41,277 nt of DNA from Spirochaetota bacterium. Its GTDB lineage: Bacteria; Spirochaetota; B62-G9; DRHN01. The stretch is taken from the NCBI GenBank assembly GCA_020342115.1, contig CP070841.1, positions 2,573,177-2,614,453 on the forward strand, written 5' to 3'. Shown here one piece after another: positions 7,377-16,563 of the stretch (position 1 is its first letter; the number at the start of each line of letters is the position of its first letter). The position numbers and the translations under genes are program-made. The notes under the pieces are model-generated. The model saw only the letters and a list, made by a program, of their open reading frames with translations, did not search any database and had not been told where the DNA came from.

Positions 7377-8654
7377 ATGATCTCTCTGGATGCATTGCGC
7401 GAGCTTGAAAGCATGGATGGGAGTTTAAAGGTTGGGCTCATTGGTGCGGGATTCATGGGCAAAGGGATTGTTGAGGTTGTTGAAAGCGCTCCGGCAATGG
7501 AGGTCGTGGCAGTGGCTGATGTTGAGATTGAAAAAGCCTGCGAATGTTTCGAGGGAATTAATTTTACAAACTATAAAGAGATAAATCGCTTGGATGATGC
7601 CAGGAACATCGTGTTTCCGAAAGAAAGGATTGTGGCCTCTGACTACAGAGTGGTAACCGGGCTTGAAGGACTCGACTTTATAATTGAAGCAACAGGTGTT
7701 CCGGAGATTGGAGCTGAGGTTGCTCTTTTTTGCATTATGAGTGGAAAACGAATTGGTATGCTCAATGTAGAGACAGACTGTACTGCAGGGTACTGGTTTT
7801 CTGAGTTTGCGAAAAGAGCTGGAGTGGTATATACAGTGTGCACCGGGGATGAACCGGCGGCAATAAAGGAGCTCTGTGATTTCTCCAGAACCCTCGGGTT
7901 TAGTGTTGTTGCATGCGGCAAGGGAAAAAACAACCCTCTTGATGTTTCTGCTAATCCAGACTCTGTGTCTAAACGAGCAGCTGAGAAGGGTTTGAATCCC
8001 AGGATTTTAACAGAGTTTGTTGATGGAACAAAGACCATGGTTGAACTAGCCTGTGTTGCCAATGCATGCGGTCTTACAGTTGATTGCAGAAATATGCATG
8101 GACCACAGGCAGAAGTTGATGAACTCGTTCATACCTTCTGTCTCAAAGAGGAGGGCGGTGTCCTTGAGAGAGAGGGAGTCGTTGATTATGTGCTCGGGAA
8201 CGTAGCTCCCGGGGTATTCGCAGTTGTCAAACACCCGGGGAATATGGTAAATGCAACACTGAGGTACTTAAAATTGGGCGAAGGGCCTTGTTATCTTCTC
8301 TACAGACCCTACCATCTCACCAATATCGAGGTGCCTATTTCTATTGCAGCAGCGTGTCTATATAATCGGGCCTGCCTGCAGACCTCAACACCTCCCACTA
8401 CAGAGGTGATCACAATAGCAAAGCATGACCTCCAAAGAGGAGATAATATTGATTGCATAGGCGGGTTCACAGTATATGGAGGAATAGAGAGAAGTGATAT
8501 TTCAAGAAGGCAAAATCTGCTCCCTCTTGGTATTGCTGAAGGGGCAAAACTTACAAGAGATGTACCGAAGGGAGAACCGTTGACATTTGGCGATGTGGAA
8601 TTAGCAGATTCGCTATTATTACACATAAGAAGGATGCAGGAGAAGCATGTATGA
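7377..8654 (+). CDS. NAD(P)-dependent oxidoreductase with C-terminal SAF domain (DRL/DXR-II-like)
   Basis: The 425-residue protein begins with a Rossmann fold (GAGFMG at 23-28) of the homoserine-dehydrogenase type. A central catalytic domain follows, and a SAF domain covers about 350-425. This architecture is that of the family containing Brucella DRL (DXR-II), the alternative enzyme making methylerythritol phosphate from deoxyxylulose phosphate. The family also has many members of unknown substrate, so the reaction is not settled here. AGGAG at 7362-7366 supports the ATG. It overlaps the HAD gene by 4 bp, and an IspG-like gene follows, which makes an isoprenoid or isoprenoid-derived role an attractive inference. 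The fold is confident and the substrate is not. Confidence 0.8.
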   Translation: MISLDALRELESMDGSLKVGLIGAGFMGKGIVEVVESAPAMEVVAVADVEIEKACECFEGINFTNYKEINRLDDARNIVFPKERIVASDYRVVTGLEGLDFIIEATGVPEIGAEVALFCIMSGKRIGMLNVETDCTAGYWFSEFAKRAGVVYTVCTGDEPAAIKELCDFSRTLGFSVVACGKGKNNPLDVSANPDSVSKRAAEKGLNPRILTEFVDGTKTMVELACVANACGLTVDCRNMHGPQAEVDELVHTFCLKEEGGVLEREGVVDYVLGNVAPGVFAVVKHPGNMVNATLRYLKLGEGPCYLLYRPYHLTNIEVPISIAAACLYNRACLQTSTPPTTEVITIAKHDLQRGDNIDCIGGFTVYGGIERSDISRRQNLLPLGIAEGAKLTRDVPKGEPLTFGDVELADSLLLHIRRMQEKHV

Positions 8655-9424
8655 TTAAGGTTAAACCGGCACTGAATAGTCGAGTAAAGGGAGTTTTTTT
8701 TGGCTACAGTAGTGTTATAGAGTGGCTCATCTGCAGTGAGGAGACCTTTAGTAAAGGTGTTTCATTGATAAGGGAACTACTTCTTACCAAAGGCATAGAT
8801 GTTAAAATTGATGAGCTTCATACCATGCTTATTTCTGGGCAGGAGAACTACTGCAATTGGTGCATGAAGAATAACTACAGAGAGCTCAAATCGGAGGAGA
8901 TCTGGGCTTCCTTCCTATTAGAGATAATATGCCGGCAAAAGAAGGACAAGGATGCCGTACAAACAGTAAGCGAAAAACTCAGCAGTATCTATGATTACTA
9001 CCGGTATAAAAGAAGACCTGTAAAAGGTATAGTAGAGATACTGAGTACACTCAGCTATGCTGGATATATAACCGCCCTTGTTTGCAATACCATCTCCAGA
9101 TCACTCATCCCTGATAGATTGCGAAAGTTCAATATAGAGAGGCATTTTTCAGCTACTGTTCTTTCGGTAGATGTCGGAAGTAAAAAACCTGCATCCGAGA
9201 TCTTTGAGAGAGCATTGAGGGAGACAGGGCTTGATGCATCTGAATGCATGCATGTGGGAGATTCTATGCTGGAGGATGTTTCAGGGAGCAAGGGGGCAAT
9301 GTTTTACCGCTCTGTATTTATACGGTCAGAGTTATCCGAGCAGAAGGATATGAACTACAGGGGAGATGTACATCCCGACTGTACTATTGAGTCTCTGGGA
9401 GAAATCTTTCAGATTATGGAATGA
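8651..9424 (+). CDS. HAD-superfamily protein lacking the motif-I nucleophile
   Basis: The 257-residue protein has a HAD-like core with an inserted helical cap (about 25-125). Motif II is near ALVCNTISRS, motif III is the lysine in GSKKPASEIF, and motif IV is VGDSMLEDV. In motif I, where phosphatases have DxDGT after a hydrophobic strand, the sequence is GVFFGYSSVI: the nucleophilic Asp is Gly and the second Asp position is Ser. Motif IV being kept suggests a real HAD fold with lost or altered chemistry. The gene is coupled to the oxidoreductase by an ATGA overlap and is followed 6 bp later by the IspG-like gene. It may bind rather than hydrolyse a phosphorylated intermediate. Confidence 0.8.
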   Translation: MIKVKPALNSRVKGVFFGYSSVIEWLICSEETFSKGVSLIRELLLTKGIDVKIDELHTMLISGQENYCNWCMKNNYRELKSEEIWASFLLEIICRQKKDKDAVQTVSEKLSSIYDYYRYKRRPVKGIVEILSTLSYAGYITALVCNTISRSLIPDRLRKFNIERHFSATVLSVDVGSKKPASEIFERALRETGLDASECMHVGDSMLEDVSGSKGAMFYRSVFIRSELSEQKDMNYRGDVHPDCTIESLGEIFQIME

Positions 9425-9430
9425 ATTGAA

Positions 9431-10219
9431 TTGGATATTAAAATTGAAAGGCGAAAGACAAAAGAGATAAAAGTAAAAAACCTCACCATTGGAGGGGGAA
9501 ATCCGGTTGTCATTCAGGAGATGACCTGGGTGCCTGCATCGGATGTCGAAGGAACAGTAAAGCAAATCCGAAAAATGGAGAGTGTGGGTCTCCGCCTGGT
9601 GAGAGTTGCTGTTCCAGATCAAGAGTCTGCGCTGTCAATAAGAAAAATAAAAAGTAAAATTAAAATTCCCGTTGTTGCAGACATACAGTTTGACTCCAGA
9701 CTTGCAATGCTTGCTATTGAAGCAGGTGTGGACAAGCTCAGAATAAACCCGGGCAATATCGGGAATAGAAAAAAACTTTCTGCTGTGGTTTCTGCTGCAA
9801 AGGAGAGAGCGGTTCCCATTAGAATAGGTGTAAACTCAGGTTCACTTGACAAATCAGTCATCAAACAGTTCGGTGGAAAAACTATCCAGGCTATGGTCGA
9901 GAGCGCTCTTGGAGAAGCGGCTCTTCTTGAGAGGCTTGGTTTTTACGATATAGTTATCTCTCTCAAATCAACCGAAATCGACCTGGTCGTTGGTGCAAAC
10001 ATAGAGATAGCAGAGAGGGTTTCATATCCACTGCACCTGGGAGTGACAGAGGCCGGGTTTGGGCAAGATGGCATGCTGCTATCTTTGAGTGGGCTCTCTC
10101 CACTCTTAATGGATGGTATCGGTGATACAATACGTATTTCGCTCACGAACAGGGACCGCCTGGAAAACATCATCCTCTGTCAGAAAATTTTAGGGGCGCT
10201 TCATATTCCATGGGTATAA
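9431..10219 (+). CDS. IspG-like TIM-barrel protein without the iron-sulfur domain
   Basis: Residues 5-262 align along the whole N-terminal TIM barrel of IspG (GcpE), including the KLRINPGNIG, VPIRIGVNSGSL, PLHLGVTEAG and GIGDTIRISL blocks. Canonical IspG continues for another 100 or so residues with a C-terminal domain holding three cysteines and a glutamate that bind the [4Fe-4S] cluster. Here the frame ends after LGALHIPWV, just before the expected CPTC motif. I read the other two frames downstream and found no CPTC remnant, so this is not a simple frameshift. It starts with TTG. Without the cluster it cannot do standard IspG reductive chemistry. It could be a substrate-binding paralogue, or it could work with a separately encoded cluster protein. 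Confidence 0.82.
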   Translation: MDIKIERRKTKEIKVKNLTIGGGNPVVIQEMTWVPASDVEGTVKQIRKMESVGLRLVRVAVPDQESALSIRKIKSKIKIPVVADIQFDSRLAMLAIEAGVDKLRINPGNIGNRKKLSAVVSAAKERAVPIRIGVNSGSLDKSVIKQFGGKTIQAMVESALGEAALLERLGFYDIVISLKSTEIDLVVGANIEIAERVSYPLHLGVTEAGFGQDGMLLSLSGLSPLLMDGIGDTIRISLTNRDRLENIILCQKILGALHIPWV

Positions 10220-10249
10220 CTGTCACTGGTATAGATACAGGAGAGGGTG

Positions 10250-11221
10250 ATGAAAAGGTTTAACCTTTTAGTGAGAAAATACCTGCTCATCTGGGCCCTA
10301 TGTGCCATGGTAATAGGGTATCTGGCAGGGAGGTATAACAATGAACGAGTTCTTTCTCTCCAGTTTCTAGTTACTCCGCTTTTGTTCCTGATGGTTTTCA
10401 TCATGGTTTTTTCCTCCAGTCTTTCCTCTTTTGCAAAGTTAAAGCTTTATCTGTATCCCATGGGAGGTAGTTTTATCCTCTTTCTTATCTGTCCGTTTCT
10501 TTCATATCTAATCATACAAATTATACCCGATTCATTTCAATATTTAGGGACTGGAATACTCATTTCATCCACTGTCCCCCCTGACGCTATGCTGTCTGCA
10601 TGGACTGGCTTTCTGGAGGGCGATATCCTTCTCACTCTTATCATACAATCCTTTACCTTTATCATATGGATTTTTCTGGTACCCTTCGGATTTTCCCTCT
10701 TCTTTGGTTCGAGCGCCCATTTTTCCCTTTTACTCCTGATTAGGAACCTCTTCTTTATGATCGTTATTCCCTATTTACTGGCAGGTATTCTTAAGATGAT
10801 TTTGAAAAGGGTGGTGTTTATAACTGAAGACCTAATGGAGAGGCTGAAACCCACACTTTCAACAGCTTCCGGTATTATTGAACTTTTCATAATTTTAATT
10901 TCAGTTGCGCTGGGAGCTGAGATCATTACTGCCAATCCTGTTATCATAGGTTGGGGTGTCCTTACAGCTGCTTTCTACTATTCAGCTGCATTTATTGTTT
11001 CCATCTACTTCACACGGCTCTTAAGGCTGTCATATGAGAAAGCAATTCCGCTCATCTATGAAAACGGTTCACGGAATCTCTCAATTGCAATGGTTGTGGC
11101 CATAACATCCTTCAAGGATCAGGCTATCCTGGGTGTTGCTGCATCCATTCTTGCACAGTTTCCTATTTCAGCACTCTTTTATGCAATATTGAGAAGGCAT
11201 TCAATAAGCCATATAGACTAA
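10250..11221 (+). CDS. BASS-family (bile acid:sodium symporter-like) membrane transporter
   Basis: The 323-residue, highly hydrophobic protein has about nine or ten predicted membrane spans and no signal peptide. The STVPPDAMLSAW stretch and the late GSRNLSIAMVVA segment resemble the discontinuous-helix motifs of the BASS/ACR3 superfamily, which moves organic anions with sodium. The ATG at 10250 is chosen over the upstream GTG (10247) because AGGAG at 10239-10243 is then 6 nt away. It follows the IspG-like gene by 30 bp on the same strand and may export or import a product of that cluster. The substrate is unknown. Confidence 0.72.
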   Translation: MKRFNLLVRKYLLIWALCAMVIGYLAGRYNNERVLSLQFLVTPLLFLMVFIMVFSSSLSSFAKLKLYLYPMGGSFILFLICPFLSYLIIQIIPDSFQYLGTGILISSTVPPDAMLSAWTGFLEGDILLTLIIQSFTFIIWIFLVPFGFSLFFGSSAHFSLLLLIRNLFFMIVIPYLLAGILKMILKRVVFITEDLMERLKPTLSTASGIIELFIILISVALGAEIITANPVIIGWGVLTAAFYYSAAFIVSIYFTRLLRLSYEKAIPLIYENGSRNLSIAMVVAITSFKDQAILGVAASILAQFPISALFYAILRRHSISHID

Positions 11222-13980: not shown

Positions 13981-15516
13981 ATGAAAATCTTGCCTTTTAG
14001 TAAAATAATCTTATCATCCATTCTTCTATCTGTTCTCTTTCTTTTTTCAGAAAGCATGGGAGATGGGGACACAAGCCTGTACTATAGAGACTACGACTCC
14101 CTCTATGACTTCAAGAATAAAATGCTGCAGCTCGATATTGAGTGTCATAGCGGAACCCCCCTCATACTGGAGTTTGTAATCACCAAAGGCAAGGATATAG
14201 GTATCAAACGAATTGACTTCGATTTTGAGAGCGATGGTGTGATAGATCTCACTCTCGAAAAAATTCATGGGGAGGTAATCTTTCGTGGTGTTCCATACTC
14301 GAAGAAAGGCACCTACAAAGCATCTCTGTATTTTGAGACGGTTTATGGGACTTTCATGAGAGAGTATATCATATCCTATACAGATTTTATCTGGGGAAGG
14401 GATAACTTTAGCTTTGCCAACGATGGGAAGTTTGAGAATATCATAGAGTTCGTTTCTGATACTGTAGTCGAGTGGGCAGAGGATCGTTTCGGAGCACTCA
14501 ATCAGGAACAGAAAATTATGGTTCTCTATCTGATGTACGGTATATATAAGGGGAGTATTGGGAGATGTTATGGGTTCTCTAGTGGGGAGTCCTACTATCT
14601 ATCCAAACCTGAACGTTTACCTGCCCCGTATGCCACTACCTATGAAATCGATGAAATGGATCGAAGAATAATACAGGGGATGGACTGGCGACAGAATGAC
14701 ATCGTGTTCTCAACGGTTATTTCTGGGGCCATAGACCTCTATGGGGAGCAGGATTCTTCGAGTTTGAGAGAGGTATTAGAGAGGATAAAGAGCACCATAG
14801 CCTCCGGGAACAGCATCATTATACCCTACATCTCACAAAAGATGCACCATTCTATGGCTGCCTACGGCCATTTCGAGAATCTGTTCAGAGACAGCGTTAC
14901 TCTTCTTGTCGCGAATAACTGGGAGAGGGAGCAGAACAGCAATGTATACAGTGAAGATGCTGAAAATATCGTTATACAATTTTCGAGGAATTCTCACAGG
15001 ATTACATGGTATGATTTAACAAAGCGCAGGCATCGATACCCGGAGAAGATCTTTGCTCTTACCTATGATGAGAACTACAGGCTCGCGCCGGATGATTTCT
15101 TATACCTGATAGAGAAGACAAAGAGGGATATAGTCGAAAATGACAGATTCATCCTCATAATAGAGCAGGTTGAGCACGCCTATATGGTAAATGATGAGGG
15201 GAAGAAAAAGGGATACAGCAAACCCAAACGCCTAAATGAATTTGAGGAAGTTTCATATAGAAAGATTGATTACAATTATATATTTGAAATTCCAAAAGAA
15301 GGAAATTACAGCCTTGTGCTGAAAAAGAAGCGGTTCAACAAAGAGAGAAAGGTTTACTACAGGGTTAACATCTTCGGCCTCTTCCCTCGAGATGGGAAGT
15401 TAGAATCCTTTGTCATGAGAGATGTCGATCTCCAAGGAGAAGTCGAGAAAGTTTTTACTGTAGATGGACAAGCCGGCAACATTGTTGAGGCCGAGGAACA
15501 GTCGAATACTCAGTGA
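13981..15516 (+). CDS. secreted protein with PKD-like and papain-like cysteine peptidase pattern
   Basis: The 511-residue protein begins with an export signal (about 1-28, a long hydrophobic run after a lysine). A PKD/Ig-like segment follows at roughly 50-130, with an acidic FDFESDGVIDL turn. Then comes a domain with Cys196 in GRCYGFS, His289/His290 in KMHHSMAAYG and Asn312/Asn313 in LLVANNWE. This order and spacing are those of papain-like (C39-like) hydrolases with a Cys-His-Asn triad. The C-terminal 130 residues are charged and unrecognised. AAGAGG sits 3 nt before the ATG. It lies between valS and a radical SAM gene, so modification or processing of a secreted substrate is possible. Peptidase activity is an inference. 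Confidence 0.55.
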   Translation: MKILPFSKIILSSILLSVLFLFSESMGDGDTSLYYRDYDSLYDFKNKMLQLDIECHSGTPLILEFVITKGKDIGIKRIDFDFESDGVIDLTLEKIHGEVIFRGVPYSKKGTYKASLYFETVYGTFMREYIISYTDFIWGRDNFSFANDGKFENIIEFVSDTVVEWAEDRFGALNQEQKIMVLYLMYGIYKGSIGRCYGFSSGESYYLSKPERLPAPYATTYEIDEMDRRIIQGMDWRQNDIVFSTVISGAIDLYGEQDSSSLREVLERIKSTIASGNSIIIPYISQKMHHSMAAYGHFENLFRDSVTLLVANNWEREQNSNVYSEDAENIVIQFSRNSHRITWYDLTKRRHRYPEKIFALTYDENYRLAPDDFLYLIEKTKRDIVENDRFILIIEQVEHAYMVNDEGKKKGYSKPKRLNEFEEVSYRKIDYNYIFEIPKEGNYSLVLKKKRFNKERKVYYRVNIFGLFPRDGKLESFVMRDVDLQGEVEKVFTVDGQAGNIVEAEEQSNTQ

Positions 15517-15534
15517 GTATTCACAGGATTATTC

Positions 15535-16563
15535 ATGAAGCAGGAAGTTCCAAAACCCATCTCCGGTGGTTTGATACTTTCATACCGATGCTCGTGTGAG
15601 TGTCTGCACTGCATGTATGCGTGTTCACCAAGGTGGGAAGCAGATTGGATTTCAGAGAATGATCTGGAAATGGTGTTGAGCAAGCTTTCAGGCAGGATTG
15701 CTGCGTCTCCTTATGGCCCGAATAATGTATCCCTCAATAGCGGGCTGCACTTCACAGGGGGGGAGCCTTTTCTCAACTTCGAGCTTCTGTTAAACGCAGT
15801 GATTATTACTGAAGAATACGCTATACCTTCCACCTTTGTAGAGACAAACTGTTTCTGGTGTACGAGTGACAGAGACACCAGGGAAAAACTAAGCACTCTA
15901 AAAAGTAAAGGGTTGAAGGGGATTCTCGTTTCTGTAAATCCCTTCTACCTCGAGTGGGTTCCCTTTGAAAGAACGAAGAGGGCTGTTCAGATAGGGTATG
16001 AGCTCTTTGGAAATAATATGTTTGTATACCAGCTCGATTATTTCAGGCGGTTTGTCAGTATGGGTATAGAGGGGAGAGTTTCCTTCTACAGGTATTTAGA
16101 GCAGAATAACGGTGACTTTTTACACGATGTTGAATTTTTTTTCATGGGAAGGGCGGCATACGATCTGGGTGAAAGGCTTGCTAAGGTTGTTCAGCATTAT
16201 GAGCCACAGTCGCTATTTGGAAGACAGTGTGTAGGTGGATTTTTGAGACCGTGGCACAATCATTTCGATAACTACTGCAACTATGTACCCGGGTATTGCG
16301 GGGGGATATCTTTTGGAGACTGCCGCGATCTCGATAATTTGCTTACCGAAGGGTTAGATCTAGACGATTATCCGGTTTTAGCATACCTGGTGTCTGAAGA
16401 CATAAAGGGTCTTTTTGAGTTTGCACAAGATCTCGGATACATGGAGAGTGGTAAGGGGTATCTTTCAAAATGTCATCTCTGTGTCGATATCAGGAGGTTT
16501 CTAGTCACCGCAGGTGAGTTCAGAGAACTGCGTCCCAAAGAGTTTTACCAGCAGCTAAAATAG
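15535..16563 (+). CDS. radical SAM protein
   Basis: The 342-residue enzyme carries the [4Fe-4S]-SAM motif CX3CX2C at C19, C23 and C26, with extra cysteines at 21 and 30. FTGGEPFLNFELL matches the GGE SAM-contacting motif. Several later cysteines (CVGG, NYCNYVPGYCGG, FGDC and CHLC) suggest an additional metal or auxiliary cluster region, loosely SPASM-like. The start has an AGGA about 10 nt upstream. It follows the putative cysteine peptidase by 18 bp and meets the barrel gene tail to tail with a 9-bp overlap. The reaction is unknown. A peptide or protein-modifying role is suggested only by the neighbouring secreted protein. Confidence 0.85.
   Translation: MKQEVPKPISGGLILSYRCSCECLHCMYACSPRWEADWISENDLEMVLSKLSGRIAASPYGPNNVSLNSGLHFTGGEPFLNFELLLNAVIITEEYAIPSTFVETNCFWCTSDRDTREKLSTLKSKGLKGILVSVNPFYLEWVPFERTKRAVQIGYELFGNNMFVYQLDYFRRFVSMGIEGRVSFYRYLEQNNGDFLHDVEFFFMGRAAYDLGERLAKVVQHYEPQSLFGRQCVGGFLRPWHNHFDNYCNYVPGYCGGISFGDCRDLDNLLTEGLDLDDYPVLAYLVSEDIKGLFEFAQDLGYMESGKGYLSKCHLCVDIRRFLVTAGEFRELRPKEFYQQLK

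Follow-up and report, generated by a model that had tools for sequence, protein, structure and literature searches.

IspG is an iron-sulfur bottleneck in the MEP pathway. In the IspG dimer, the barrel of each chain is capped by the cluster domain of its partner. The one-piece enzyme is dimeric (PMC11218510). Only one-piece forms, with two or three domains, were described in a survey covering 4,400 species, in which IspG was called "evolutionarily rigid" (PMC10663253). In the same survey, 181 species lacked only Dxs, and most of these cases were left unexplained (PMC10663253). For the DXP reductoisomerase step, the closest described system is Brucella DRL (DXR-II, PDB 3UPL/3UPY). Residue 229 is Thr in DXR-II, Leu, Ile, or Val in DLO1, and Pro, Ser, or Ala in DLO2, and the tested members of DLO1 and DLO2 did not complement a DXR-defective mutant (PMC3847144).

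The window, the whole stretch of 41,277 nucleotides analysed here, comes from a Spirochaetota bacterium whose genome (G000) is a single contig of 3.53 Mb with an estimated completeness of 90%. This genome was compared with seven other genomes of its order, five from its own family and two from a sister family (G000 to G007; n = 8 for the order), and with 52 other genomes of the phylum; the related genome G008 was used for the DXS comparison. The following features are central to the analysis.

7377-8654, plus strand: DRL / DXR-II-type oxidoreductase (Pfam DRL_cat plus SAF; match to 3UPL)
8651-9424, plus strand: HAD-superfamily protein (Pfam HAD_2, E=3e-17)
9431-10219, plus strand: IspG-A, the TIM-barrel half of IspG without the cluster domain (Pfam GcpE, E=3e-91)
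10247-11221, plus strand: BASS/SBF-type transporter (orthologues pass Pfam SBF; synteny)
G000:C1:3480390-3481397, minus strand, outside the window: IspG-B, 335 aa (C-terminal half of GcpE)

The ORF positions agree with the first-pass annotation of this DNA, which had described four genes with a 4-bp overlap between DRL and HAD and a 6-bp gap between HAD and IspG-A; a scan for promoters and terminators yielded nothing above chance. The gene order PilQ, DRL, (HAD), (IspG barrel), BASS, and ValS is kept partly or wholly across the other genomes of the order, and the DRL(-HAD)-IspG-A adjacency is found in both of its families (G000, G002; G006), so the neighbourhood is conserved in relatives. Judged from sequence, the cluster very probably encodes two steps of the order's own MEP pathway, with DRL standing in for DXR-I and IspG acting as a heteromer of IspG-A and IspG-B. 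Farther downstream, on the plus strand, the window carries a gene for a 511-aa protein with no Pfam match (13981-15516), and the product of the next gene (15535-16563) weakly matches radical SAM peptide epimerases of the YydG type.

A probable division of IspG between two genes

The GcpE match of IspG-A covers profile positions 1 to 248 of 343, which indicates that the cluster domain is truly missing and agrees with the first description of this protein as a barrel-only IspG relative. GcpE matched two genes in the whole genome, namely, the window's barrel gene and, at a distance of 0.9 Mb, a gene for the C-terminal half. The product of the latter, IspG-B, has the C-terminal end CPGCGRC...GCNVNGPGEA. 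A canonical one-piece ispG is therefore not present in this genome; the [4Fe-4S] domain, with its three Cys and one Glu, sits in IspG-B and not in the same polypeptide as the IspG-A barrel, so that only the pair meets the definition of IspG. The pair was found in seven of the eight genomes of the order, with no other IspG beside it, and G007 (88% complete) had no IspG match whatsoever. Elsewhere in the phylum, one-piece IspG was the rule (two-domain, or three-domain in a few families), and the few divided matches lay at contig ends or in neighbouring frames. A scan of genome contigs with IspG-B returned what were apparently one-piece IspG genes (75 of 80 loci checked by ORF), with no member of the order among the matches.

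N145 and S262 (T. thermophilus numbering) are substrate or catalytic positions of IspG. All residues were mapped on T. thermophilus IspG, and those other than N145 and S262 are named according to PMC11218510. The eight substrate/catalytic residues R56, R110, R141, N145, K204, E232, R260, and S262 were all retained by IspG-A in 7/7 genomes, and none of the cluster ligands was present in it in any of the seven. Conversely, IspG-B retained all four ligands, C297, C300, C343, and E350, in 6/6 sequences and had lost the substrate site, R110 being matched in one of the six sequences and S262 in another. Both residue sets were present in 29/29 one-piece relatives. Compared with two-domain IspG (GcpE; PDB 3NOY, 4G9P, and 2Y0F), the barrel active site is thus found residue for residue in IspG-A and the [4Fe-4S] site in IspG-B, but the two halves lie on separate genes and IspG-B has an additional degenerate barrel. 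An enzyme that is normally in one piece appears to be split over two genes here, each with half of the active site.

It could instead be supposed that IspG-A and IspG-B are paralogues that act separately, each in a role of its own, since 0.9 Mb separates their genes in the genome of the window and several relatives carry them in different operons. This is highly improbable, however, given that the active-site residues are complementary in all genomes, that no other IspG occurs in the genomes carrying the pair, and that in G003 and G004 the genes lie side by side in divergent orientation. In addition, the genes in G001 follow the order IspG-A, ispF, ispD, ispE, and IspG-B, as joined from two contigs that share an exact 141-bp overlap inside ispE. 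Gene content, the complementary loss of residues, its conservation, and this linkage are features of the genomes themselves; a physical complex of the two proteins, and the reactions proposed for it below, would be consistent with the residues, the fold, and the linkage.

The N-terminal 240 residues of IspG-B correspond to a diverged IspG barrel (hhalign probability 97.3, 214 columns). Its AlphaFold model (pLDDT 85.0) has a fold like that of two-domain IspG, and its ten best PDB matches were all IspG structures, with TM scores of up to 0.76. The two halves together also resemble the three-domain IspG (A-A*-B) of Bacteroidota, Chlamydiae, and others in that each active site is served by a live barrel, a second barrel, and a cluster domain, with a similar summed length, but here they do not form a single polypeptide, and IspG-A is without the barrel insertion of the three-domain forms. 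A derivation of IspG-B from the A*-B half of a broken three-domain enzyme was rejected because hhalign favoured two-domain barrels over A* and because IspG-A does not branch with the three-domain forms. By these comparisons, the arrangement is like the three-domain enzyme in logic, not in descent.

The most likely origin is the duplication of a two-domain IspG gene, after which the copies lost opposite halves; the dead barrel of IspG-B would, by this account, have been kept as a dimer scaffold. Such complementary decay is possible where both chains of a homodimer contribute to an active site, because one good site would be left. No description of a split IspG was found in the titles and abstracts of the open-access literature searched, and word searches found no mention of one in a 2026 review; the arrangement is thus new to the literature searched. 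The split is clean, order-wide, and testable, and it provides two naturally separable parts for testing the cooperation of barrel and cluster domain, as well as a new engineering handle.

The DRL oxidoreductase and the other MEP genes

The first gene of the cluster had been assigned to the DRL type, and its DXR-II character is supported by strong matches to DRL_cat (E=1e-64) and SAF and by the diagnostic residues; NCBIfam agreed with Pfam on these domains, on HAD_2, and on the truncated GcpE match. The protein aligned with Brucella DRL (3UPL) over 410 residues (positions 16 to 421) with 300 bits (phmmer). The two proteins thus share full-length homology, the same domain order, and the substrate- and dimer-interface residues of PMC3847144, although the window's DRL is far diverged in sequence. 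Retained residues include K191, K193, T229, E174, F178, R320, Y322, G121, H250, F291, and P330, and every residue assigned to fosmidomycin binding or the dimer cavity is present (PMC3847144); two DXR-II sites differ (V351 to T and G248 to N). In the tree, the DRLs of the order formed their own clade (support 100/99) inside a 100/99 group with Brucella, Priestia, and others. The protein, which carries T229 as well as further DXR-II residues, did not branch with unrelated SAF dehydrogenases; DLO1-like (I229) sequences fell in the same group, so that the tree places it within a wider DXR-II/DLO1 group.

DRL is encoded in all eight genomes of the order, in G005 and G007 only as contig-end pieces, and the identity is 53 to 64% for the full-length copies and the G007 piece. 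The first-pass annotation had left the presence of a canonical dxr to be checked: DXR-I was found in none of the eight genomes, compared with 49/52 of the others in the phylum. In the window's genome, DRL is therefore the one candidate for a DXP reductoisomerase, and, in contrast to the Brucella case, it is the sole putative DXR across an entire order. The step from DXP to MEP would fall to it instead of to DXR-I.

IspD, IspE, and IspF were found in 8/8 genomes of the order and IspH in five, including the window's; four of these five have a gene for a polyprenyl synthase next to that for IspH. The three genomes in which IspH was not found are all incomplete. These genes place the cluster in the MEP pathway proper. 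In the proposed model, DRL would turn DXP into MEP, IspD, IspE, and IspF would then yield the cyclic diphosphate MEcPP, and IspG-A would bind MEcPP through its conserved Arg, Lys, and Asn residues and Glu232. IspG-B would close its [4Fe-4S] cluster over the IspG-A barrel and reduce MEcPP to HMBPP, from which IspH would make IPP and DMAPP.

The clustering had originally been read as the mark of an undescribed pathway derived from MEP-type chemistry, in which DRL, HAD, barrel, and transporter would jointly act on an MEP-like metabolite outside the isoprenoid intermediates. The four genes are indeed clustered and conserved, HAD and BASS are without a known MEP role, DXS is missing, and the plasmid relatives of DRL lie in E1/E2 operons. 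Nevertheless, the proposal is now very unlikely: IspG-A retains every MEcPP-binding residue and lies beside ispFDE in G001, and the IspD-E-F-H set is otherwise full, with a gap that DRL and IspG-A/B exactly fill. As the genome has neither DXR-I nor another IspG, it needs DRL and the IspG pair to complete that set. The simplest reading is an ordinary MEP pathway with unusual parts, namely, a DXR-II and a split IspG, not a new MEP-like pathway; of the novelty claimed at first, only the absence of DXS remains.

The relatives of DRL on Sinorhizobium, Pseudoroseomonas, and Aminobacter plasmids are directly followed by E1-alpha, E1-beta, and E2 genes of an acetoin-dehydrogenase-like complex, whereas the DRL gene of the window overlaps the HAD gene. 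These plasmid operons could possibly serve to break down methylerythritol phosphate by way of DXP, with acetyl-CoA and triose phosphate as products.

The HAD protein had been called a pseudoenzyme. This holds for the window copy, in which motif I reads FGYSSV and the DxD is absent, but not for the family, as the nucleophile Asp is preserved (FDYGGV or LDYGGV) in four orthologues from other genera, in which only the second Asp of the DxD is replaced. In G002 and G005, no HAD gene separates DRL from the gene that follows it, so HAD is dispensable for the gene order. A HAD protein of Plasmodium, HAD1, is reportedly tied to the early MEP pathway as well, which provides an analogy only, and the window's copy differs in having lost the catalytic motif. 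HAD1 is linked to fosmidomycin sensitivity (PMC6234871).

The assignment of the fourth gene to the BASS type is supported by its orthologues, two of which (62 to 69% identity) exceed the Pfam SBF (BASS) cutoff; the window copy itself is below the threshold, with weak matches only (acr3 and PanS). The gene is 51 to 68% identical over seven genomes and is conserved beside DRL, HAD, and IspG-A and, in G006, beside IspG-B. HAD and BASS may perhaps function in regulation or substrate supply.

The source of DXP

Canonical DXS (PF13292) was absent from 8/8 genomes of the order, with best E values per genome of 1e-5 to 5e-11; where examined, these best matches were transketolase or E1 proteins, that of G000 (4e-10) being the N half of a transketolase. 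The related genome G008 had a match of 3e-108. The first step of the pathway is consequently unfilled. The order shares an MEP pathway with no detectable Dxs with the species lacking only Dxs (PMC10663253) but differs from them in that DXR-I is also missing, IspG is split, and a specific candidate for the Dxs step can be named, as follows.

G000:C1:2821825-2824095 (L119 3326-5596), minus strand: fused E1 alpha/beta thiamine enzyme, 756 aa (E1-type match)

This enzyme could tentatively be assigned to DXP formation in place of DXS. One full-length orthologue was present in each of the eight genomes (73 to 77% identity), no comparable copy was found in the 52 other genomes of the phylum, and G001 and G006 had no E1-type match besides it. 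Furthermore, E. coli aceE (E1) mutants produce DXP and rescue the loss of dxs (PMC3424233), and the fused E1 scored 68 bits against the DXS structure 7BZX, compared with 32 bits for a control E1-beta, a difference that is suggestive only. Against this assignment, no DXS-like active-site residue was identified, and in 7/8 genomes of the order the gene after it resembles mannitol-1-phosphate dehydrogenase, a partner that points to another sugar-phosphate role. Nor did the tree, which was itself weak, support a specific relationship of the enzyme to the E1 proteins encoded beside DRL on alphaproteobacterial plasmids. The fused E1 is the best, although unproven, candidate for a DXS replacement.

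Equally tentative is a supply of DXP from another source, be it a split transketolase, a shunt derived from methylthioadenosine or deoxyadenosine, or uptake. A TktN/TktC/RpiB cluster is present in G000, G001, and G002, mtnA (methylthioribose-1-phosphate isomerase) directly follows ispH in G000 (L112 6063-7124) and lies 4 kb from it in G007 of the sister family (L211 9783-10817), and a RuBisCO-like gene occurs in five of the eight genomes. None of these sources, however, is universal across the order. The split transketolase with RpiB was rejected as a DXS replacement because it is confined to the three genomes named. The RuBisCO-like gene adjoins two alcohol dehydrogenase genes in G000 (L225 6762-10119), G003, and G005, which looks like sugar (sugar-acid) catabolism; with this context, its limited distribution, and only the weak link of mtnA to ispH, the methylthioadenosine-isoprenoid shunt was likewise rejected.

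The fullest version of the fused-E1 reading, in which the order's MEP pathway was rebuilt at both entry and exit, with a fused acetoin/pyruvate-dehydrogenase-type E1 for DXS, DXR-II for DXR-I, and an obligate two-gene IspG heteromer arising by complementary decay of duplicates, is doubtful as a whole. Whereas the supply of DXP is unexplained for most species that lack Dxs, this order offers a specific enzyme for testing. E1-type dehydrogenase loci vary widely in number within the order, with 17 matches in G000 and one each in G001 and G006.
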